Notes under the pieces: generated by a model
What the model saw: only the letters and a program-made list of their open reading frames with translations
Databases searched by the model: none
What the model was told of the DNA's origin: nothing
Program-made: the position numbers and the translations under genes
Assembly (NCBI GenBank): GCA_020853525.1
Contig: JADYYS010000011.1
Span: forward strand, 1 to 64,000
Reading direction: 5' to 3'
Origin: Ardenticatenales bacterium
Lineage (GTDB): Bacteria > Chloroflexota > Anaerolineae > Epilineales > Epilineaceae
Length of the DNA: 64,000 nt
Shown: positions 2,205 to 38,241 of the stretch, piece after piece
Layout of the letters: the number at the start of each line of letters is the position of its first letter
Position numbering within the stretch: position 1 is the first letter of the stretch

Positions 2205-3524
2205 TCAGGCTGCGCTGTCGCCACCGCGTCGGCCGGCGTCGCGCAGCAGGCGGGCGATGGCGGCCGCGAGGCGGTCGGGGTCGTGGCGGGTGGGCTGGGC
2301 GTCGCTGATCAGGTCGGCGCGCATGAGGTCGGGTACGTAGCCGTTGCGGCTTGCACCGAGGACGGGCGGGACGAGCGGCAGGTTGGGGTTGCGCGCGAGC
2401 GGCGCCAGGTTGTCGTTGGCGAGGACGATGTCGATCACCGGGCGGCCGAGGTGACGGCGCAGGGCCTCGACATGGTCCTCCAGGCTGTAGCCGTCCGTTT
2501 CACCGGGCTGGGTGGCCACGTTCGCCACGTAGACCACGGGTGCGCGGGTGGCCTCGAGGGCCGCCGCGATGTCCGGGACCAGTAGGTTGGGCAGGACGCT
2601 GGTGTACAGGCTGCCCGGACCGAGGATGATGAGGTCGGCGTCCAGGATCGCGGCGACGGCTTCGGGGTAGGCGGCCGGCGCGTCGGGCTCGAGGAAGACG
2701 CGGCGGATCGGCGCCTCGCCGTGCGGGACGCGGGACTCGCCGGCCATCACGCGGTCGTCGGCCAGCTCGGCGAACAAGGTGACGTGCGTCAGCGTGGACG
2801 GGACGATCCTGCCGCGGACCGCGAGGACGCGGCTCGACGCGCGCAGCGCGCTCTCAAAGCTGCCGGTGATGCCGGTCATCGCGACGATGAACAGGTTGCC
2901 GAAGGCGTGACCGCCCAGCTCGGTGCCGTCGCCGAAACGGTACTCGAACAGGCGCTGCATGAGCGGCTCGGTGTTCGCCAGCGCAGCGATGCACTGCCGG
3001 AAGTCGCCGGGCGGATGGACGCCGAGGCTCTGTCGCAACCGCCCGCTCGACCCGCCGTCGTCCGCCACGGTGACGATGGCCGTGATCTGGTCCGTGTGCT
3101 GCTTGAGGCCGCGCAGAAGTGTCGAGAGGCCGGTGCCGCCGCCGATCGCGACGATCTTGGCGTCCGAACGGCGGCGGCGCCGGCGGTCGACGATGTCGAC
3201 GAGCGCCGGCGAACCTTCGGGCGCGACGGCGGTCAGGAGCGAACGGTTCAGGCCGTACAGGCCGCCGAGCGCCATGCCGAGGCCGATGACGAGGAACAGG
3301 ATGGCGCGCACCGCCTGCGGCAGGAACTGCAGCGTGGCGACGTACAGGAGGGGCTGGATGTCGCCCGGCAGCGCCGAATCCCGGTAGGCGTCGATGAGGG
3401 AGTACGCGATCCCGAGCGCCATCGCGGTGATGCCGGCCAGGAGCAGGGCCAGCCAGCGCTTGACCTGCATGCCGGGCATCAACCATTTCAGGGAGCGGCT
3501 CTTCGGCCAGTCGGGAAGGCGCAT
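2205..3524 (-). CDS. yvcK: YvcK/CofD-like protein with N-terminal membrane anchor
   Basis: About 439 residues. Two hydrophobic segments at the N-terminus (WLALLLAGITAMALGIAYS; a second around FLPQAVRAILFLVIGLG) precede a full YvcK domain that opens with VAIGGGTGLSTLLRGLK and continues with TVADDGGSSGRLR, GDFRQCIAAL, GGHAFGNLFI and GPGSLYTSVLPNLLV. YvcK (gluconeogenesis factor) binds UDP-sugars and links carbon status to envelope synthesis in Firmicutes and Actinobacteria. The B. subtilis protein is shorter and has no anchor; membrane-anchored forms occur in other phyla. A TTG start 12 bases upstream is possible; I chose the ATG. It lies downstream of an ECF sigma/anti-sigma pair on the same strand. 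Confidence 0.9.
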   Translation of the reverse strand: MRLPDWPKSRSLKWLMPGMQVKRWLALLLAGITAMALGIAYSLIDAYRDSALPGDIQPLLYVATLQFLPQAVRAILFLVIGLGMALGGLYGLNRSLLTAVAPEGSPALVDIVDRRRRRRSDAKIVAIGGGTGLSTLLRGLKQHTDQITAIVTVADDGGSSGRLRQSLGVHPPGDFRQCIAALANTEPLMQRLFEYRFGDGTELGGHAFGNLFIVAMTGITGSFESALRASSRVLAVRGRIVPSTLTHVTLFAELADDRVMAGESRVPHGEAPIRRVFLEPDAPAAYPEAVAAILDADLIILGPGSLYTSVLPNLLVPDIAAALEATRAPVVYVANVATQPGETDGYSLEDHVEALRRHLGRPVIDIVLANDNLAPLARNPNLPLVPPVLGASRNGYVPDLMRADLISDAQPTRHDPDRLAAAIARLLRDAGRRGGDSAA

Positions 3525-3942: not shown

Positions 3943-4632
3943 TCAGGCGGCGTGGAGGTAATCTTCGAGCGCGTGCCGGACCGCCGTGCGGGCACGGTGC
4001 AGCAAAACGCGCTGATTCGTCGCCGTGATGTCCAGCTCGTTACAGACTTCGTCGGCATCCCAGCCCATTACGTCCCGCAGCGTGATGACGGCGCGCTGCC
4101 GCTCCGGCAGTGCCGCGATCGCCGCGTCGACGACATCGCGCGCTTCGGCTGCGAGCACGCGCCCTTCGGCATCGAGCCACGGCTCGGGCGGCGCCTGCCA
4201 GTAGCCCACCGTACTGGTGCCGAGGCCCCAGAACCGGTCGGAATCGGCGGAGCCGCCATCGTCGTCGCCGTCCTCCGTGGCGAAGGCCGAGAAGGGCACG
4301 GTGCGTGCCTCGCGGCGACCGCGGGTGCGCGCTTTGTTGGCGACGATACGGAAGATCCACGTGCGGAGCGCGCTGCGACCCTCGAACCCGTCGAGCCCCT
4401 GCAACACACCGACCCACGCTTCCTGGACGACCTCTTCGGCCGTGGCGCGGTCGCGGACGAAGAGCTGCGCCAAGCGCACCATCGACGGGTGCAGCTGGTG
4501 GACGAGATCGGCGAACGCGGCCTCGTCCCCCCGGCGCAGCGCGTGGACCAACGCAATGTCGCCGCCGAGGGCTGGATCACCGCCCGGCGCGATCACCGTC
4601 GTTGGCGCATCGGGGGCGATGCCGGTGCTCAC
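3943..4632 (-). CDS. ECF-family RNA polymerase sigma factor
   Basis: About 229 residues. Region sigma2 (AFADLVHQLHPSMVRLAQ, EEVVQEAWVGVLQGLDGFEG, LRTWIFRIVANKARTRGRRE) and region sigma4 (ALPERQRAVITLRDVMGW, HRARTAVRHAL) are complete, with an Asp/Gly-rich linker of roughly 50 residues between them. I chose the GTG at 4632 because AGGAG lies 9 bases before it; an in-frame TTG 21 bases upstream has no better site. It forms an operon with the following zinc-finger anti-sigma gene. The regulon is not visible. Confidence 0.88.
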   Translation of the reverse strand: MSTGIAPDAPTTVIAPGGDPALGGDIALVHALRRGDEAAFADLVHQLHPSMVRLAQLFVRDRATAEEVVQEAWVGVLQGLDGFEGRSALRTWIFRIVANKARTRGRREARTVPFSAFATEDGDDDGGSADSDRFWGLGTSTVGYWQAPPEPWLDAEGRVLAAEARDVVDAAIAALPERQRAVITLRDVMGWDADEVCNELDITATNQRVLLHRARTAVRHALEDYLHAA

Positions 4633-4674
4633 GATTCCGCGCTCCTGTCGCAACGACGCAGGCGCGCCGTCGAA

Positions 4675-4714
4675 GGCTGGGGGGCCGGGATTCGAACCCG
4701 GACTGACGGATTCA
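4675..4714 (-). repeat. attL-like copy of the tRNA-Gln 3' half
   Basis: These 40 bases are identical, in the same orientation, to 10362-10401. That stretch is the tRNA-Gln gene from the anticodon loop through variable region, T arm and acceptor to the second base of CCA. The copy lacks the 5' half of a tRNA. Such duplications arise when tyrosine-recombinase elements integrate at a tRNA anticodon loop. No integrase gene is visible between the copies. The 4715-4834 stretch beyond it holds nothing else I recognise. Confidence 0.75.
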
Positions 4715-4834
4715 TAAGGCTACGTTGAGGGGACGTTGGCCTTGGCCAGCCTGCAGCAACGGATGCTAGCGTGTCTTGTGGCGGGTGACCAGAACGGCCG
4801 TCGGCGGCCAACATGTGACGGGATGTGCCACGCA

Positions 4835-4858
4835 GGTTGGCATCACGGTTGGCATCAA
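4835..4858 (+). repeat. Tandem 12-bp repeat near left tRNA copy
   Basis: Two adjacent units, GGTTGGCATCAC and GGTTGGCATCAA. The same motif occurs as GGTCGGCATCAG plus GGCTGGCATCAT at 10279-10302, just inside the right tRNA boundary. Paired short direct repeats inside both att sites resemble the arm-type binding sites of tyrosine integrases. That assignment is inference. Confidence 0.55.
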
Positions 4859-4901
4859 CTGGCGTCAGCGCCTTGCGTGCCTGCGCGCTCTGGTCGACCG
4901 C

Positions 4902-5111
4902 TCAGGGCTTCCGCGCCTCGTCGGCGAGCAGGTCGGCCATGATGATCGCGGCGATCTCCTCGTCCGACTCGTCGCCGATGTCGTAGTATCGGTGCGGCGA
5001 TCCGCTCGCCGTCGGGACGGTGGCGATCAGCGTGGTCCGCTTGCCCGGCGCCGGCGTGCGTGTCCTGACGAGCGTGCGGCGACGCGGCTGGGGTTGGCGG
5101 TTGTCGGTCAT
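4902..5111 (-). CDS. Small protein, basic N-terminus and acidic C-terminus
   Basis: A 69-residue protein of unknown function. The first third is rich in Arg/Thr/Pro (RRRTLVRTRTPAPGKR) and the last third is acidic and helical (DESDEEIAAIIMADLLADE). The site AGGGAGG abuts an ATG at 5117, too close to serve it, but lies 6 bases before the ATG at 5111, so I start there. It lies inside the tRNA-bounded segment. I recognise no family. Confidence 0.5.
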   Translation of the reverse strand: MTDNRQPQPRRRTLVRTRTPAPGKRTTLIATVPTASGSPHRYYDIGDESDEEIAAIIMADLLADEARKP

Positions 5112-5212
5112 GTTCATCCTCCCTCAGGTGATCGATCGGGGGCGGCCGATCGGGCGTTCATGAGCGCCGCGCGAACGCCTCGCACCGCGTTGTCAGATGA
5201 CGTGCGCCGCGT

Positions 5213-5356
5213 TCATCTGCCGCCGCTGCATGCGCAGCCGGCGCCCTTGTGACAGTTCTTGTCGAGCGAGATGCAGCTGTCCCCGCAAAGCGTTGACCGG
5301 GCCGGGTTACAGCACTTGCAGCATCTCCCTCTGCCGCCCCCACCTGGCGTAAGCGT
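5213..5356 (-). pseudogene. Remnant of a Cys-rich small protein gene
   Basis: A 47-codon open frame ending at TGA 5215-5213 encodes RCCKCC followed by CGDSCISLDKNCHKGAGCAC, nine cysteines in all. From memory, the CGDSCIS...CH..GCAC pattern recurs at the C-terminus of small bacterial proteins of unknown function. The frame has an in-frame stop upstream (5359-5357) and no ATG, GTG or TTG before the Cys region, so the 5' part seems lost. Bases 5357-5590 between this frame and the next gene hold no gene I can support. Confidence 0.5.
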
Positions 5357-5590
5357 TCAGTGGGCGGGCCGAGCGTAGCGGTTGTCCGCAGGTAGGAGCC
5401 GCCGTATGCTGTGGAGCATGCAGATCAGCATTCCGAGTGCAGGTACGCTCCGCGACCACCAGCAGCGACGGCGTCGTGTTCCTCGACTATGCCCGTCAGG
5501 CAGCCGTTGGTCATGACGCCCCGTTGTCGCGCGTTCCCGGCACGTGAACAGGTTCCTGCCATCACGGCATCATCGAAAGGGACCGATACC

Positions 5591-7834
5591 ATGGTCTACG
5601 TGCGCCGGATGACAGCTAGGTTCGCACTCTTGATGGCGCTCGGGCTCGGGGTCTGGATCGCGACGCCCAATACCTGGCCGATCCAGGCGCGCGCGTGGGT
5701 CACGGCGCTCCTCCATCCTCCGTCCCCGATGCAACTGCGACTCGAGGCGGAGCCAGCGCATCGGGTCCGAGCCCAGCTCGGCGGCGCAGTGACCAAGGTG
5801 GCAGTCGGCGACGGCCACATCTTCGCCGGCGTCGGGCCGCGTTTGATCATGTTCGATGGGGCCGCCAAGGACGACCCGGTCGAGCTGGCGGCGTCCGACC
5901 CGCTTCCGGCGAGGGTCAAGTCCCTGGCGGCGCTGGACGGGGCGATCGCCGTGGGCTACGGCATCCAGGACGAGGGCGGCCCCAATGGAATCGCCCTCTT
6001 CCGTCCCGGCCCCAATGGCCAGCTTTCCGTTCAAGGCATGCTGCCCCTGAAGGGCGTGCCGGTGGCCATGCTGGTCGACGGCGACACCCTGATCGTCGCC
6101 ACCCGAATGCAGACGACGGACGATCTGTCGCCCCCGACACCGAGCCCCGCGGGCGAGGCCGGTGACGTTCCCGCCAGCCCTGGCAACGTCACCTACCACG
6201 GCGGCGAGGTCCTCGCCGTCGACGTTGCGGATCGGACGGCGCCGCGCATCGTGGGTACGCTGGTCCTGGACGAGGTGCCGTCGGCGCTCGGCCGCGACGG
6301 TGGCCCGGTGTACGTCATGACGACCGCGTACCACTCCGCGTTCGATGGCACCGCCGTACTCCAGGCGGTCGATGTCTCGGATCCCGCTCACCCCCGGCGG
6401 ATCGGCTCGTTCGAGGTCGGCGAGTACGGGGGCACGGGCGACCCTGGGTTGGCCGTCAAGGGCTCCTTTGCCTTCGCCGGCGTCGGCGCCATCGATCCCG
6501 GCGTGGCCATCATCGACATCCACGACCCGAACAACATGCACAAGGTGGCGAACATCAACTCCATCGCCACCTCGGTCGCGGTGGTCGGACACATGCTGTA
6601 CATCCTGGACGCAGGGGAGGTGGAGCTCGTCGACGTGACCGATGTGTCGCAACCTCAGGTCGTGGGCTCGTTGCCGTCGCACATCCGGGACTTGGTCGTC
6701 GACGGTGACCGGCTTGTGGTGGCGGAGAGTACCGACACCGAAGACGAGGATGAGACCTACGGCAACTTCGGCAGCGTAGGCGTCTACTCCATCGCCGATG
6801 GCCCGCAGCATCCGACGCACACAGGCACATGGCGCAGCCTCGTCGACATGACGAGCGCGGCGGCCAACGCCGACCGGGTCTACGTCACCGTCGCCAACAG
6901 CCTCGTGGCGGCCATCGACACCAGCGACCCGGGCCGGCCGCAGCGCGTCGGCGCGGCCCGCTGGCACACCGGCTGGTCGCTCATCGTGACCGAAATGGCG
7001 CTGGCGGACGGGACGGTCGGGATGATCGACATCGGCTCGGGCGGGTCCTCCCTTTACCTGGCGCAACTCGGCGCTGATGGCGTCCCGCAGCCGGCGACGG
7101 CGCTCGACCTGGACGCGCACGCCGTCGGCGTCGCCGCCGATGGCCCACTCATAGCGGTGCTCGTGGAGCGCACGTTCAACTTCCGTGGTCCTCCGTCCCC
7201 GCCGGTGGACAAGGCCCTCCGGCTGTACCGCCTGGCCGACGACGGCACCGCGACGCTGGCCGGCGAGACGGCCGTTCCCGGCTCGCCGGTGGCCGTGGCA
7301 ATGCGCGGGTCCGTCGTCTACGTCGCCACAACCAACGGCCTGCAGGTTGTCGACGTGGCGGACGCGTCGCAGCCGACGCTTGTGCGGTCGGTGTCGGATG
7401 TCGCCGTCCTGCCTCTCCCCTTCGACCCGCAACGCATCTCGCTCGGCGGCAACCACTTGGCCGTGGCCATCGCGGGCGGTCTCCGCCTCTTCGATGTCGC
7501 CAACGCCCTCATGCCGCGTGCCATCGGGGACATTGCCATCAACGACCTTCAAGCGGTCGCCGTCTCGCCCAGCCTGGTCTTCGCCGCGTCACCTCGGGCG
7601 AACGACACCAGCCACGTGGCGGCCTACTCCGTGGGCGATGTCGGCGGCCGCCCGGTGTTCGAGGCACAGCTCCCGAGCCCGGTGCGATCGCTGACGACGC
7701 AGGGCGATGTCCTTGTGGCGATCACCGAGGAGACGGGAATCTATTGGCTGAGTGCCAACACGCTGCCCGACGCGCCGCCCGCGATACCGCGCTGGAGCAG
7801 CATCTGCCTGCCGTACCTGGAGCAGCCCCGCTGA
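5591..7834 (+). CDS. Secreted LVIVD-type beta-propeller protein
   Basis: About 747 residues. An N-terminal signal or anchor (MVYVRRMTARFALLMALGLG) is followed by repeated blades of the LVIVD kind: VEVDV-like strands such as LEVVDV/LVDVTD, 'DVSDPAHPRRIGSFE', 'DVTDVSQPQVVGSL', 'DTSDPGRPQRVGA', 'DVADASQPTLV'. LVIVD-repeat proteins are extracellular propellers of uncertain role. The C-terminus is SICLPYLEQPR, one of several LP motifs in secreted proteins here. An upstream in-frame ATG at 5411 would add 60 unconserved residues; GAAAGGGA before 5591 favours the shorter start. It lies within the tRNA-bounded segment, convergent with another propeller gene. Confidence 0.85.
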   Translation: MVYVRRMTARFALLMALGLGVWIATPNTWPIQARAWVTALLHPPSPMQLRLEAEPAHRVRAQLGGAVTKVAVGDGHIFAGVGPRLIMFDGAAKDDPVELAASDPLPARVKSLAALDGAIAVGYGIQDEGGPNGIALFRPGPNGQLSVQGMLPLKGVPVAMLVDGDTLIVATRMQTTDDLSPPTPSPAGEAGDVPASPGNVTYHGGEVLAVDVADRTAPRIVGTLVLDEVPSALGRDGGPVYVMTTAYHSAFDGTAVLQAVDVSDPAHPRRIGSFEVGEYGGTGDPGLAVKGSFAFAGVGAIDPGVAIIDIHDPNNMHKVANINSIATSVAVVGHMLYILDAGEVELVDVTDVSQPQVVGSLPSHIRDLVVDGDRLVVAESTDTEDEDETYGNFGSVGVYSIADGPQHPTHTGTWRSLVDMTSAAANADRVYVTVANSLVAAIDTSDPGRPQRVGAARWHTGWSLIVTEMALADGTVGMIDIGSGGSSLYLAQLGADGVPQPATALDLDAHAVGVAADGPLIAVLVERTFNFRGPPSPPVDKALRLYRLADDGTATLAGETAVPGSPVAVAMRGSVVYVATTNGLQVVDVADASQPTLVRSVSDVAVLPLPFDPQRISLGGNHLAVAIAGGLRLFDVANALMPRAIGDIAINDLQAVAVSPSLVFAASPRANDTSHVAAYSVGDVGGRPVFEAQLPSPVRSLTTQGDVLVAITEETGIYWLSANTLPDAPPAIPRWSSICLPYLEQPR

Positions 7835-7944
7835 AGTCAGCGTCTCGTACTGTGTATCGGCCTCCGGAGTGAACCGGCACCTTCGCCCGCCAGCGGGTCA
7901 GTTCGCTCACGAGTTCATTCCGCAATAGCCTTCACGCCCAGCCC

Positions 7945-10089
7945 CTACCGCCCCCCCTCCAACACTCGTGGGCTCCCCCCACCCAACACCGTCATCCAAG
8001 CCTTCCCGTCCGGCGTGAACGCGATGTCCCGGACCTGTGAGAGGTCGACCTGCGGCACCGTGTACCACGACCCGTCCGGCCGCCGGATGAGAAGCTCCCC
8101 GAACCGGCCGCCCAGCCAGGCACTCCCGTCCGGTGCGATCGCCAAGGCCGGCCGGGTCCCGGGTCGACCTCCGTTGCGCGTCACGTCGTAGCCCGGCTGG
8201 CCCTCGAACAGGTCCCACGTCCCGTCCGGGGCACGCCGGATCAAGCCGAGGCCGCTCAGGTACAGCCACAGCCCTCCTGCGTCGTCGGCCGCCATGGCGG
8301 TGATCTCATGGGCGGCCACCTGGCTCGGCAGGGCGATTTCCGCCCATGTACCGTCCGCGCCTCGGGACATCACCAGGCTCTGCTGGCCAGCCGCGAGCCC
8401 GACCCAGACGGACCCATCCACCCCTGTCGCCAGCCCGTGCACGCTCCTTGCCCGCAGGCCCAGCGCAGCATCCTGTCCCTCCCAGACGCCGTCTGGACGA
8501 TGGCGCGTCACGCCCGCGATCGTCGCGCCGCCGAGCGCCGCGAACCAGATCGACCCGTCCGCAGCCGGCTGCACGATGTCGACACGCCGACCGCCGAGCG
8601 CCACCGGATCCTGGACATGCGTCCACGCTCCATCCAAGGCGCGGTGGACAGCACCCGTTTCCGTGGCGAACCAGATGCCGTCCGCAGCGTACGCCACGTC
8701 CCACGGCGCGGCGGCCGTGGTGGGGTAGCCCTCGCCGAGCCATGTCCAGCTCCCGTCCGGCCGCCGGAGGTCGCCGTCCATGAGGACCTCGTCTCCTCGC
8801 ACCGCGACGGCGCGCGCGTCGCCCGGCCCGGGCAGCCAGTCCCGGCGCCACGCCCCGTCCTTCGTGCGTCGCATCATTCCCGCGCCCGTGGCCACCCACG
8901 CCGCCCCGTCCGCATCGATCGCCAAGTCGGTGGTGTCCACTGCGAAGGTGATGCCACCGATCTCGACCGTAGGCGGCGCATCCACTTTCCAGCGCCCGGG
9001 ACGGCTGTCGTCCGGGATGTAGATCCCGCTGTCGCCCGCGAACCACGGCCGGCCCTGCGCGTCCCAGGCAACGGTGCTCGGGATGTTCGCCGGATCGATG
9101 ATCTCGAACCCGTCCAACGGAGCCGGCACCCACCGCCCGTCAGCTCCGAAGACGTCGACGACGACGGTTTCGCTGAAGTCGGGCTCGGGAAACGCGATGC
9201 CGTAGATGACCGCCCACACCCGCCCGTCCGGGGCCAGGGCGATGTCCTTCACGGCGCCGAGGTCGACGCGCAGCCCGTCAGCCGATCCGAACATAGTCCA
9301 CCCACCGTCGGCGCGGTGGACGGCAGCACCCTGCTGCCCCAAGGCCAGCCAGACGTCGCCGTTCGGCAGGGCGAGGATGTCCGACACCATGTTCGTGGCC
9401 GCGTCCGGGGCGCCGGGCGGCGGGAACGCCCATGCGCCATCGGGGGATCGGACCGCCGCGCCGCTGTCGGCTCCGATCCAGATCGCCCCGGCGCGGTCCA
9501 CTGCGACGTGCTGGGCGATCAGCGGCGCTTCCACAGAGATCCAGCGCCCTTCCGGTCCGCGCCACGCCACGACGCCCTCGAACGTCGGCCCCTCCCCGGC
9601 CGTGTAGACCGTCCCGTCGAGGCTGATCGTCAGCGCAGTGCCGGGATAGTCGTGCGGCAGGCCGTCCGCACCCGTGTAGCTTATGGTCGCCGATCCGTCT
9701 GCCGGACGGTGGGCGATCCCGTCGTAGCCCACAGACCAGACGTCGCCCGTCCGCGGATCCGCGACGATCTGCTGGACGTCGTTCGCCGGCCGGAGGTGCC
9801 GCCAGCGCGGGAGCATGCCGGGCGCCAGCGTCGCTGTCGGCGCGGCGGTCGGGTCAGGCAACGGAGCGACGGTCGGGGACGCCGTTGTGTTCGGCGCCGC
9901 GCCAGCCGGGACGGACGCCAGCGTGCAGTCCGCGGCGCATGTGATCGGCAGGTGGATCCGATGTGGTGCGACCGCGTCGTTGTCGGCAAGTGCGACGGAG
10001 CGCGGGGCGAACGGGACGGGGCTTGACGCGAGCGCGCCGGCGCCGAGGGCGGCGAGGACGCCGAGGACGCGTGTCGGGAGGGAGGTCAT
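7945..10089 (-). CDS. Secreted propeller protein with DGxW repeats
   Basis: About 714 residues. A signal peptide (VLGVLAALGAGALASSPVPF) is followed by the motif IHLPITCAADC and a Pro/Thr/Ala linker, then at least ten blades with the signature DGxW (SPDGAWAF, RADGGWTMFG, KDGAWRRDW, RPDGSWTWLG, ALDGAWTHV, APDGTWDLFE, RPDGSWYTV) alternating with 'DGSVWVG'-like strands, as in two-component-regulator propeller (Reg_prop) repeats. No kinase or HTH domain follows, so it is probably a surface protein, not a sensor. GGAG sits 7 bases before the ATG at 10089. Convergent with the LVIVD gene. Confidence 0.82.
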   Translation of the reverse strand: MTSLPTRVLGVLAALGAGALASSPVPFAPRSVALADNDAVAPHRIHLPITCAADCTLASVPAGAAPNTTASPTVAPLPDPTAAPTATLAPGMLPRWRHLRPANDVQQIVADPRTGDVWSVGYDGIAHRPADGSATISYTGADGLPHDYPGTALTISLDGTVYTAGEGPTFEGVVAWRGPEGRWISVEAPLIAQHVAVDRAGAIWIGADSGAAVRSPDGAWAFPPPGAPDAATNMVSDILALPNGDVWLALGQQGAAVHRADGGWTMFGSADGLRVDLGAVKDIALAPDGRVWAVIYGIAFPEPDFSETVVVDVFGADGRWVPAPLDGFEIIDPANIPSTVAWDAQGRPWFAGDSGIYIPDDSRPGRWKVDAPPTVEIGGITFAVDTTDLAIDADGAAWVATGAGMMRRTKDGAWRRDWLPGPGDARAVAVRGDEVLMDGDLRRPDGSWTWLGEGYPTTAAAPWDVAYAADGIWFATETGAVHRALDGAWTHVQDPVALGGRRVDIVQPAADGSIWFAALGGATIAGVTRHRPDGVWEGQDAALGLRARSVHGLATGVDGSVWVGLAAGQQSLVMSRGADGTWAEIALPSQVAAHEITAMAADDAGGLWLYLSGLGLIRRAPDGTWDLFEGQPGYDVTRNGGRPGTRPALAIAPDGSAWLGGRFGELLIRRPDGSWYTVPQVDLSQVRDIAFTPDGKAWMTVLGGGSPRVLEGGR

Positions 10090-10208
10090 GGGCATGCTCC
10101 GGTACGGGGTCGACGAGAGGTTAGAAAGCGCAGGGCAGCGGCTGTGACCAGGTAGAGCGGCGCGAGCGCCAATACGGCGAGGGCGGCTCCGATGACGCAC
10201 CAGAAAAA

Positions 10209-10240
10209 CGGCGATTCCGACGAGCGGCGATTCCGACGTG
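10209..10240 (+). repeat. Tandem 16-bp direct repeat
   Basis: Two units, CGGCGATTCCGACGAG and CGGCGATTCCGACGTG, differing at one base. They lie between the propeller gene and tRNA-Gln, about 40 bases from the 12-bp repeats near the att-like site. They could belong to the recombination region or the propeller promoter; nothing decides this. Confidence 0.5.
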
Positions 10241-10278
10241 GAGCCAAGCGACGGGTACCGTGCGCGTCTCCTGGCGAG

Positions 10279-10302
10279 GGTCGGCATCAGGGCTGGCATC
10301 AT
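10279..10302 (+). repeat. Tandem 12-bp repeat near right tRNA boundary
   Basis: Units GGTCGGCATCAG and GGCTGGCATCAT, the counterpart of 4835-4858 (shared core GGCATCA preceded by GGYY). They lie about 60 bases inside the tRNA-Gln 3' end. They are candidate arm-type integrase sites of a lost or unrecognised element. Confidence 0.55.
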
Positions 10303-10360
10303 TTCGCCAAACGCAGTCCGGGCGCCGAGCGTCCACCGGTCTTGGTGGTCTGTGAAATGA

Positions 10361-10434
10361 TGGCTGGGGGGCCGGGATTCGAACCCGGACTGACGGATTC
10401 AAAGTCCGCTGTCCTACCGTTAGACGACCCCCCA
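10361..10434 (-). tRNA. tRNA-Gln (anticodon UUG)
   Basis: On the minus strand a 74-nt cloverleaf folds. The acceptor TGGGGGG pairs with CCCCCCA, discriminator G is followed by an encoded CCA, the T arm contains GGTTCGAATCC, and the anticodon stem-loop reads GCGGA-CTTTGAA-TCCGT with anticodon TTG at 10402-10400. The U1-A72 pair is typical of tRNA-Gln. Bases 10362-10401 are duplicated at 4675-4714. Confidence 0.95.
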
Positions 10435-10567: not shown

Positions 10568-10644
10568 CTAGTACCACCACTGCAGAATCTCCGGGTTCCC
10601 CACTCTGGCGGCAACCCCGAGCGTGTCCAGTGGTGGTGTACTAG
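10568..10644. repeat. 77-bp imperfect inverted-repeat element at a stop codon
   Basis: The ends CTAGTACCACCACTG (10568-10582) and CAGTGGTGGTGTACTAG (10628-10644) are reverse complements apart from a 2-base bulge. A partial inner stem joins CGGGTT (10592-10597) to AACCCC. The right end supplies the TAG stop of the sigma gene (10641-10643). It resembles a MITE or other small palindromic insertion; no second copy was noticed in this window. Confidence 0.5.
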
Positions 10645-11789
10645 TTCAGATACGACTTGAGCATCTGTGCCCGGCTCGGGTGGCGCAGCTTGCGCAGCGC
10701 CTCCTTTTCGATCTGCCGCACGCGCTCGCGCGTCAGGCCGAAGATCTTGCCGACCTCTTTCAGGGTGTAGGCACGATGCCCGCGCAGGCCGTAACGGAGC
10801 TCGAGCACCCGCTGTTCCCGCGCGGTGAGCCCCAGGAGCACGGACTCGACGTCGCCGCGCAGCAGATCCAGGGACGCCGTCTCGAGCGGGTCGATGCCTT
10901 GCTCGTCCTCGATGAACTGGCCGAGCTCGCTCTCCCCCTCGTGGCCCACCGGCTTCTCGAGGCTGATGCTGCGGCGGCTGGCCTGCAGCGCAACCTCGAC
11001 CTTCTCGACCTCGATCTGGAGCTCGCCGGCGATCTCGGCCGCGGACGGGCGCCGACCAAGCTCGGTCTCGAGAGCGTGCGCGACAGCGTAGACCTTGCGG
11101 ATCCGATCGTTCATGTGCACCGGCACGCGGATCGTCCGGCCTTGGTCGGCCAGGCCGCGCGTCAGCGACTGCCGAATCCACCATGTCGCGTACGTGCTGA
11201 ACTTGTTGCCGCGGCGCCAGTCGAACTTCTCGACCGCGCGCATCAGGCCGAGGTTCCCCTCTTGGATCAGGTCGAGGAACGGCACGCCCTGTCCGAGATA
11301 GCGCTTGGCCATGCTGATGACCAGCCGGCTGTTCGCCTGCGTCAGCTCGCGCTTCGCCATCTCACCGTCCTGCACCAAGCGCGCGCGTTCAGCGGCGATC
11401 TTGGCCGACGGGCGCGGGGTACCCTCGAGTTCCGCCTGCGCCTCGCGGCCGGCCTCGATCCGCTTCGCCAGCTCGATCTCCTGCTCCGCCGTCAAGAGAT
11501 CGATCGTGCCGACCTCGCGGAAGTAGAGGCTCACGGCGTCATCGGACTCGATGCCCTCGAAGTCGACGCGATGCACCGGTGCCAGATCGGCTTCCTCCGG
11601 CCCTTCGGCCAGATCGACCTCGATGCCCAAATCCTCCAACAGATCGACCGCCACCCCGATGTCGTCGGCGGCTTCAGGCCATACGGCGATCACGTCCGCC
11701 GTCGTCAGCACGCCGACGTCGTCGGCGCGCCGGACCAAGGCGTCCATGATCGCCTCGTCCGCGGGACCAGTGTCGTGTTCCTGCCACAT
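10641..11789 (-). CDS. Primary-type RNA polymerase sigma factor (SigA/RpoD family)
   Basis: 382 residues with regions 1.2 to 4.2: DAVSLYFREVGTIDLLT (1.2), LTQANSRLVISMAKRY, FLDLIQEGNLGLMRAVEKFD and KFSTYATWWIRQSLTR (2.1-2.4), a region-3 segment (HALETELGRRPSAAEIAGEL) and the region-4 helix-turn-helix ending RERVRQIEKEALRKLRHP. An N-terminal 1.1-like part is acidic. RpoD recognises -10/-35 promoters. It could be the housekeeping sigma or a close group-2 paralogue; the window cannot decide. AGGAG lies 10 bases before the ATG. The TAG stop falls in a palindromic element. Confidence 0.92.
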   Translation of the reverse strand: MWQEHDTGPADEAIMDALVRRADDVGVLTTADVIAVWPEAADDIGVAVDLLEDLGIEVDLAEGPEEADLAPVHRVDFEGIESDDAVSLYFREVGTIDLLTAEQEIELAKRIEAGREAQAELEGTPRPSAKIAAERARLVQDGEMAKRELTQANSRLVISMAKRYLGQGVPFLDLIQEGNLGLMRAVEKFDWRRGNKFSTYATWWIRQSLTRGLADQGRTIRVPVHMNDRIRKVYAVAHALETELGRRPSAAEIAGELQIEVEKVEVALQASRRSISLEKPVGHEGESELGQFIEDEQGIDPLETASLDLLRGDVESVLLGLTAREQRVLELRYGLRGHRAYTLKEVGKIFGLTRERVRQIEKEALRKLRHPSRAQMLKSYLN

Positions 11790-19774: not shown

Positions 19775-23422
<3,648 letters not shown>

Positions 23423-36540: not shown

Positions 36541-38241
36541 TCATCGGGGTCGTGCCCAGATCCAGGCATAGTCGATTCCGTTCAGCCGGACGACGTGTGT
36601 CGGCGGTCGCCCCTCGACCGCCGACAGGATCTCCTCCGGCTCGCCGATCTGCCGGTCGTCGATCATGACGACGAGCCAGCCGGCGTCGCGCCACTTCTTG
36701 GGCGCCACGATGCGGCCACGATAACCGTACGCGAGCAGAACGTCGCTGGCTGTGGCGACGGTGTGCTCCGCCGCGGTCGACCACCCGGTGCGATCCTGGG
36801 CATGCAACCATGCCACGACGAGGTCCGAGCCCTCGCCCCAGCCGACGGGCAGCACGCGCGCCGCCGCCGGCCCGCCGCCGAGGAGCGGGTTGTACCACGC
36901 CAGGTAGGTCGGGTGGTGGGCCACGACGAACGCGGCCTGCAGCGCGACCGCCGCCGCCAACGCCGCGGCCTGCCGTCGCGCCTGCCGCCCGACATGGCCG
37001 ACGCCCCAGAGGTCCGCCACGGCCCACGCCGACGGCGAAGGCGTCGCGGTGTCGGGCGCATCGATCGCGACCCCCTCCCGCGCCTGCCACCGCCGCGCGG
37101 CGTCGACGAGGACCACGAGCCCGACCGCCGCCACGACGTCGAGCGCCGGCAGGCTGGGGAGCATGTAGCGCTCGAACTTCTTGGCGCCCGCACCCATCGC
37201 CAGCACGAAGACCACCGCCCACGCCAGCAGCAAGGCCGCCGTCCACCGCCCACGCCGCGCCTCGCGCCCGGCCGCGAAGACGCCGACCGCCAGCCCCACG
37301 AGCGACAGCGGCGTCATCCGCCAAGGGATCGCGGCCAGGTAGAGGCCGATGCCGGGGTCGGGCGAGACCCGCCCGGCAAAGAAGACGGCCTCGCGCGCCT
37401 GCCCCGCGCCTTCGGCCGCGTACGCCAGCATGCGCTGGAATGTCTCGACGGGTGCGACCCACATCGCCGGCCAGACGGCGACGTACGTGATGGCGGCCGC
37501 AACGGCGACGACGACGCCGGCGTCCAGCCACCGCACGAGGCCGTCGCCCACACGCGTCCGACTCCGGCTGCGCACGGCGTCGACGACGATCCGCACCGTG
37601 ATGACCGCCGCGACGAATGCTCCCAGGACGAGCATCGGCGACTTTTCCACGATCGCCAGGCCGGTCGCGACGCCCGTGGCGATGAGCCAGCGCTTCGAGG
37701 GCGCGGGTGGCGCGCTGTCGAGCCGGCGCGCGAGGACGTCGAGCCAGCGCGCCAGGCAGAGGACGGCGACGAGGGCGAGCGAGGCGGCGACGGCGTCGAG
37801 GTGGAGGACGCGGCTGTGGGCGAGGAGGTAGGGGTCGAAGGCGAGGAGGGCGGCGGCCGTCGTCGCTGCCGGCGTGCCGACGAGGGGGCGGGCGAGCCAC
37901 CAGGCGAGGGCGATGGCGAGGGCGGTGAGGAGGGCGATTGCGGCGCGCATGCCGTCGAGCGGATCGACATCGTCATCGACGACGGACTCCGACGGGCGAT
38001 CGGCAATCGCCAACGCCACCGCGCCGGCCCACATCGTGACGACGCCCGGGTGCTCGCGCTGGAAGGTCTGTCGGAGATCGCCGCCCTCGAGCGCTTGCAG
38101 GAATGCGGTCGACCGCTCGGCCCACGTCGGCTCGTCCCAGGTGACGAAGCGGGCGGGGGCGAGGAGGCGGGGGGCCAGGGCTAGGGTGAAGATGGCGAGG
38201 CAGGCGAATGAGGTCGCGATGCGACCACGTGAGGCCCTCAC
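36541..38241 (-). CDS. Family-39-type membrane glycosyltransferase
   Basis: About 566 residues with some ten membrane helices and a soluble C-terminal region. The external loop has VTWDEPTW (catalytic-type Asp-Glu) and REHPGVVTMWAG; later helices carry VWPAMWVAPVETFQRML and AGAKKFERYMLPSLPAL. It shares the (R/K)EHPGVVTMW, WPAMWV and KKFxRYxLP motifs with the next gene upstream (38238-42146), so the two are paralogues. I chose the GTG at 38241, which overlaps the upstream stop in a GTGA; an ATG 30 bases earlier is possible. Likely sugar transfer from a polyprenyl carrier. Confidence 0.82.
   Translation of the reverse strand: MRASRGRIATSFACLAIFTLALAPRLLAPARFVTWDEPTWAERSTAFLQALEGGDLRQTFQREHPGVVTMWAGAVALAIADRPSESVVDDDVDPLDGMRAAIALLTALAIALAWWLARPLVGTPAATTAAALLAFDPYLLAHSRVLHLDAVAASLALVAVLCLARWLDVLARRLDSAPPAPSKRWLIATGVATGLAIVEKSPMLVLGAFVAAVITVRIVVDAVRSRSRTRVGDGLVRWLDAGVVVAVAAAITYVAVWPAMWVAPVETFQRMLAYAAEGAGQAREAVFFAGRVSPDPGIGLYLAAIPWRMTPLSLVGLAVGVFAAGREARRGRWTAALLLAWAVVFVLAMGAGAKKFERYMLPSLPALDVVAAVGLVVLVDAARRWQAREGVAIDAPDTATPSPSAWAVADLWGVGHVGRQARRQAAALAAAVALQAAFVVAHHPTYLAWYNPLLGGGPAAARVLPVGWGEGSDLVVAWLHAQDRTGWSTAAEHTVATASDVLLAYGYRGRIVAPKKWRDAGWLVVMIDDRQIGEPEEILSAVEGRPPTHVVRLNGIDYAWIWARPR

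Follow-up and report, generated by a model that had tools for sequence, protein, structure and literature searches.

How did a segment of 5.7 kb that encodes no integrase come to lie between two copies of the 3' part of a tRNA-Gln gene, and what kind of recombinase could have placed it there? This question is raised by positions 4675 to 10434 of the first 64,000 nucleotides of contig JADYYS010000011.1 (forward strand), from the Ardenticatenales bacterium genome GCA_020853525.1 (Chloroflexota; 4.27 Mb in 76 contigs); the whole 64,000-nucleotide stretch is called the window below. We conclude, with a probability of about 0.85, that the segment is a tRNA-integrated mobile element that is left without its integrase and excisionase and now stands alone, in the manner of a cis-mobilizable element (CIME). 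Judging from the sites kept at its ends, the parent integrase is best read as an arm-binding enzyme of the Tn916/lambda-like kind.

The first-pass annotation, made from the letters alone, had described a perfect 40-bp direct repeat covering tRNA-Gln from its anticodon loop to its 3' end, and our comparison confirms it: 4675-4714 and 10362-10401 are identical at 40/40 bp, with the repeat beginning within the anticodon loop and stopping at the CC with which the gene ends. A search of the whole genome returned one full tRNA-Gln(TTG) gene and one partial copy, the latter at 4675-4714. Thus a direct repeat of the tRNA's 3' part is present at both ends of the segment and the gene itself is restored, as is characteristic of attL and attR attachment sites. 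In the expected crossover region, tRNA-Gln has CTTTGAATCC where the distal copy has CTTATGAATCC, with one extra base. Two other ARAGORN predictions in the window, tRNA-Arg at 22199-22291 and tRNA-Gly at 37945-38033, were judged on sight to be spurious.

At both inner ends of the segment stand paired arm-type sites of the motif GGYYGGCATCA, all four in one orientation (Table 1). Single matches to this motif number five in the window, against 0.22 expected by chance, and the fifth, at 3428, is unpaired. With a strict pair pattern, the genome yields these two segment ends only; a looser pattern gives three matches among 396 genomes of the class, two of which are again the segment ends. A still looser pattern allowing up to two mismatches finds 20 places in the genome (three exact, one with one mismatch and 16 with two), compared to a single match for its reversed control, and the three exact places are both segment ends and C35:12088-12109. 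The pair on contig C35, which our first strict pattern had missed by one base, was spotted by reading the spacers between tRNA and integrase genes and then confirmed with the looser pattern. When viral contigs were scanned with this kind of pattern, 12 loci came up, and neither a tRNA nor a match to any of the genome's own six tyrosine recombinases was found at them. DNA alignments of the distal against the proximal end were poor beyond the core and the arms, and we place no weight on them. The first-pass annotation was therefore right about the pairs of one motif at both inner sides, while its 12-bp repeat unit has to be corrected to 11 bp recurring at a 12-bp period.

The C35 pair leads to a candidate for the kind of enzyme involved. 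The genome contains six PF00589 matches, and three of these recombinases, on C35, C44 and C56, are each encoded directly behind a tRNA gene, the C44 and C56 integrases being 53% and 50% identical to that of C35. Between tRNA-Lys(CTT) and the C35 integrase lies TGATGCCAACGCTGATGCCAACC, the reverse complement of the window's motif pair, 46 bp from the tRNA-Lys end and oriented relative to its tRNA as in the window; it equals the distal window pair at 21/23 bases and the proximal pair at 20/23. The first-pass annotation had proposed searching for a tyrosine recombinase flanked by the GGTTGGCATCA pair, and one is thus present in the same genome. The GTTGGCATCA pair was not found in the examined stretches of C44, C56, C45, C32 or C63. 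The C35 integrase gene starts right after the arm pair, its frame is uninterrupted and retains the conserved catalytic positions, and it is followed by a gene for a small HTH_17/AlpA-like protein. Pfam assigns SAM-like and catalytic domains to the integrase, and an AlphaFold2 model (mean predicted local distance difference test score, pLDDT, 79.7; predicted template modelling score, pTM, 0.59) places three N-terminal strands and a helix ahead of these two core domains. The best Foldseek matches of the model are the Tn1549 and lambda integrases, both of which are also found by sequence search. By its domains and predicted fold, then, the C35 protein has the plan of an arm-binding-domain tyrosine integrase, with arm-binding, core-binding and catalytic domains. 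In such enzymes the N-terminal domain binds the arm pairs, while binding and cleavage of the core fall to the remaining two. A large protein also encoded by the C35 element has NHL and VWA domains, and no similarity between it and the window's proteins was detected.

The geometry of the segment's ends was compared with that of these integrase-bearing elements. The C44 and C56 arm pairs have another sequence (TTACCCTRAC, TGACCCTA) with the same period, and they lie about 60 bp behind their tRNA genes; across C35, C44, C56 and the window, the distance on the tRNA side is 46-61 bp. Measured from the T-loop GGTTCGA to the arm pair, the spacing is 84 bp in the window, 71 in C35, 83 in C44 and 84 in C56. 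On the distal side, the arm pair is 121 bp from the repeat in the window, 118 bp in C13 and 119 bp in C14. The C56 element has its far end on C13, where the arrangement is the same and a 44-bp tRNA-Arg(CCT) repeat takes in the whole anticodon loop; C14 holds a far end of another element, located at a tRNA whose variable arm is long (Leu/Ser-like by eye). The near end of the C14 element is not in the assembly, nor were the opposite ends of the C35 and C44 elements located in it. Given these matching distances at C35, C44, C56, C13 and C14, the window segment has the end architecture of integrase-bearing elements on both sides, its two inner pairs of arm-type sites being spaced as in these relatives, and the earlier interpretation of the ends as attL and attR with arm sites for a tyrosine integrase is supported by it. 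Within C13 (L144) and C14 (L145), at about 1500-2200, the first inner genes look alike by eye and have membrane-protein-like frames (MDRLYETVYSRN, MNSLYHRIYSRD), which suggests that the two elements share a backbone.

Across the class, integrase matches at an E value of 1e-60 occur in 10 of the 298 genomes searched, at 12 places. Nine of these 12 loci have a tRNA gene, and a repeat pair with an 11-12 bp period lies behind eight of the nine, as scored by a generic repeat-pair test that was applied to the nine tRNA-bearing loci and has a chance rate of 2-4% each. Among control tRNA flanks, 5/56 passed, and two of these five are the tRNA of the C44 integrase itself and the tRNA-Thr of C2, perhaps a member of the same family. 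The arm-binding domain also seems to diverge in step with the sites: the N-terminal domains of the C44, C56 and G001 integrases, which have ACCCTA arms, are 57-66% identical to one another and 40-47% identical to that of C35, while the core-binding and catalytic domains are 49-60% identical throughout the four. As judged from these identities, N-terminal domain identity tracks arm sequence across the four integrases.

The tRNA-Thr(CGT) of contig C2 (L156:1035-1110) has a pair GTTGGCATACACGTTGGCATAC with a 12-bp period 60 bp behind it (L156:953-974), and no recombinase is found near this pair in the 950 bp that remain before the contig begins. At the contig's first bases lies the end of an insertion sequence, which over 125 bp matches one on C35 with 100% identity. 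It is possible that this is a second integrase-less end of the same family.

Table 1. Features of the tRNA-Gln segment and its immediate flanks (window coordinates).
Feature	Position	Strand	Remarks
Distal arm-type pair, GGTTGGCATCA/GGTTGGCATCA	4835-4845/4847-4857	+	12-bp period
Proximal arm-type pair, GGTCGGCATCA/GGCTGGCATCA	10279-10289/10291-10301	+	12-bp period; 60 bp from repeat
tRNA-Gln(TTG), target gene	10361..10434	-	ARAGORN
40-bp attachment repeat within tRNA-Gln	10362..10401	-	
Second copy of the 40-bp attachment repeat	4675..4714	-	displaced 3' part of tRNA-Gln
Small reading frame, 69 aa	4902..5111	-	no match in Pfam or NCBIfam
Propeller protein, 747 aa (cargo)	5591..7834	+	LVIVD/Beta_propel repeats
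Reg_prop propeller protein, 714 aa (cargo)	7945..10089	-	
Extracytoplasmic function (ECF) sigma factor gene (flank)	3943..4653	-	start 21 bp beyond distal repeat
Primary-type (rpoD-like) sigma factor (flank)	10641..11789	-	upstream of tRNA-Gln

The content of the segment agrees with what had been noted at first pass, namely two propeller proteins and a small protein in 5.7 kb with no integrase left. The N-terminal stretches of both propeller proteins resemble signal peptides by eye, and the LVIVD protein has matches at an E value of 1e-12 in 4/150 genomes of the class, its own included, the best other being 25% identical. With the genome's six tyrosine recombinases as tblastn queries (E 0.01), no integrase similarity was detected anywhere in the window, and no integrase-like reading frame was seen beside the tRNA-side arm pair, the place that the integrase gene occupies on C35. 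As the segment has no integrase gene of its own, it can only be a non-autonomous or decayed form. A Cys-rich frame of about 36 codons with no start codon is visible by eye on the minus strand at about 5215-5335; this is the broken Cys-rich gene of the first-pass annotation. Before the insertion, only 21 bp would have lain between the 3' end of tRNA-Gln and the start of the ECF sigma gene (3943-4653 of the window), and the element may thus have cut this gene off from an upstream promoter.

The first-pass annotation had also suggested looking in relatives for an uninterrupted tRNA-Gln locus. Seven genomes of the order, including this one, were available, and six of them, again including this one, have a tRNA-Gln match. 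None of the other five contains a partial copy: their tRNA-Gln(TTG) matches are full genes, and the shorter matches are other tRNAs. In G002 the tRNA-Gln directly adjoins rpoD as in the window, and in G001 rpoD is about 3.7 kb away. The suggestion is thus upheld for the tRNA gene in all five genomes and for the rpoD side in G002, while an empty site with both flanks could not be recovered.

Taken together, these results favor the following history. The segment would have entered by site-specific recombination between an element attachment site and the part of tRNA-Gln from the anticodon loop to the 3' end, with the incoming 3' half restoring the tRNA gene and the chromosomal 3' half being pushed out to 4675-4714. 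The attachment site of the circular form would have read, in order, arm pair, 60 bp, core, 120 bp and arm pair, and crossover is expected in the anticodon loop because the C56/C13 repeat includes the whole of this loop. An integrase with a C35-like arm-binding domain probably carried out the insertion; its gene would later have been deleted from the usual place beside the tRNA-side arm pair, leaving a solitary CIME-like element with the two propeller proteins as cargo.

Several observations weigh against this reading. The two sites of the proximal pair differ at two positions, which is why the pair fails the generic repeat-pair test, and it was recognised through the motif instead. The one C35-type integrase with matching arms is located at tRNA-Lys(CTT), another tRNA than tRNA-Gln. 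The G+C content of the segment (70.0%) is lower than that of its flanks (73.4% and 72.6%), which speaks for the reading, but the difference is slight. In the relatives, no empty site with both flanks was seen, because the left-flank genes (ECF sigma, YvcK) were not found near tRNA-Gln in the stretches examined; one genome_contigs scan with the ECF sigma protein gave 41 distant loci and no useful relative. Finally, the motif occurs with one mismatch at C24:25146, where there is no tRNA. This place holds three tandem 12-bp units similar to the arm motif, GTCGGCATCAAC CTTGGCATCAAC CTTGGCAACTGC (L113:1501-1535), situated between FtsK-like and YebC-like genes, as named by eye.

This last occurrence, a near-exact motif pair upstream of a yebC-like gene without a tRNA, would fit a history in which a tandem duplication of the tRNA left the partial copy behind, with arm-like pairs that arose by chance or serve an unrelated regulator. 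Duplication can yield partial tRNA copies, but it would predict neither a pair at both inner ends nor the rarity of that pair, two of whose three matches in the 396 class genomes are here, nor a pair beside an integrase, nor matching distances, and we regard this history as very improbable. Even less credit can be given to an assembly artefact in which two pieces were joined at the tRNA repeat: the assembly is in 76 contigs and other such elements break at contig ends, but here a single 96.9-kb contig contains the two ends together with their matching arm pairs and their repeats of one tRNA. A different possibility is that the segment is no relic but a functional non-autonomous element, a satellite moved in trans by a C35-type integrase together with its small helix-turn-helix protein. 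The arm sequence common to both segment ends and C35, the good preservation of both arm pairs and of the 40-bp repeat, and the intact C35 integrase with its conserved catalytic positions and neighboring HTH_17/AlpA-like protein would all be explained, and an integrase-less island moved by host functions has a precedent in H47, as far as it is described in PMC3191183. Only one copy of the element is present in the genome, however, the C35 integrase sits at a different tRNA, and the distal copy carries its extra base in the expected crossover region, so that we consider a functional satellite rather unlikely. More broadly, and as a still more tentative conjecture, the genome may host a family of tRNA-targeting elements with a shared arm-site code, in which integrase-less members, consisting of cargo flanked by two arm-site pairs and a tRNA half, are satellites (the tRNA-Gln element would be one, the tRNA-Thr end of C2 perhaps another) and are moved in trans by whichever resident integrase has a matching arm-binding domain, even one at a different tRNA.

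On the reading that we prefer, a tRNA-integrated element that has lost its recombination genes, present mobility is doubtful because the distal copy has one base more than the tRNA in the expected crossover region. Such an extra base would put a mismatch in the overlap between recombining sites. The C35 integrase might nevertheless still mobilise the segment in trans.

Among known systems, the closest likeness is to CIMEs, which are decayed integrative and conjugative elements (ICEs) or integrative and mobilizable elements (IMEs) that retain their att sites and which in streptococci are often found at tRNA 3' ends with sizes of 1.2-13 kb, according to the portions of PMC7563491 and PMC5704250 that treat them. 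Like the streptococcal CIMEs described there, the segment is small, has attL and attR and cargo, and lacks recombination and transfer genes; having kept its att sites and lost its recombination genes, it is likened to CIMEs by its ends and gene loss alone and not by conjugative descent. Unlike them, as these accounts present them, it is solitary rather than in tandem with an ICE or IME, and the resident integrase indicated by its arm sites is found at a different tRNA. It also resembles the H47 island of E. coli, which is likewise small, is flanked by repeats, lacks recombination genes and is excised by host functions; in the available part of that report (PMC3191183), H47 excision was shown by experiment and the integrase is not named, while our segment is known from sequence and has a candidate integrase through its arm sites. 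Integrases with arm-binding domains prefer tRNA genes, as stated in the excerpted text of PMC8138268, and the C35, C44 and C56 integrases share the domain plan, fold and tRNA neighborhood of the Tn916/lambda-like elements outlined there; the ends in the window show the arm-core-arm layout of those elements, though the segment itself is without an integrase. Dehalococcoides ssrA islands are likewise cargo bounded by a repeat of the 3' end of an RNA gene, but they use a serine recombinase, and the accessible part of PMC3146451 reports no arm pairs for them. Among the papers listed by our literature searches, none dealt with the tRNA-Gln element.

Integrase-less islands are already known; what is unusual about this one is that a candidate helper integrase can be told from its arm sites. 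The case shows that arm-type sites are recognisable in the bare sequence and can tie such an island to a particular integrase of the same genome, so that trans-mobilisation of islands of this kind can be tested directly. The arm sequences and N-terminal domains that co-vary in four integrases offer, in addition, a small starting set for an arm-binding code.

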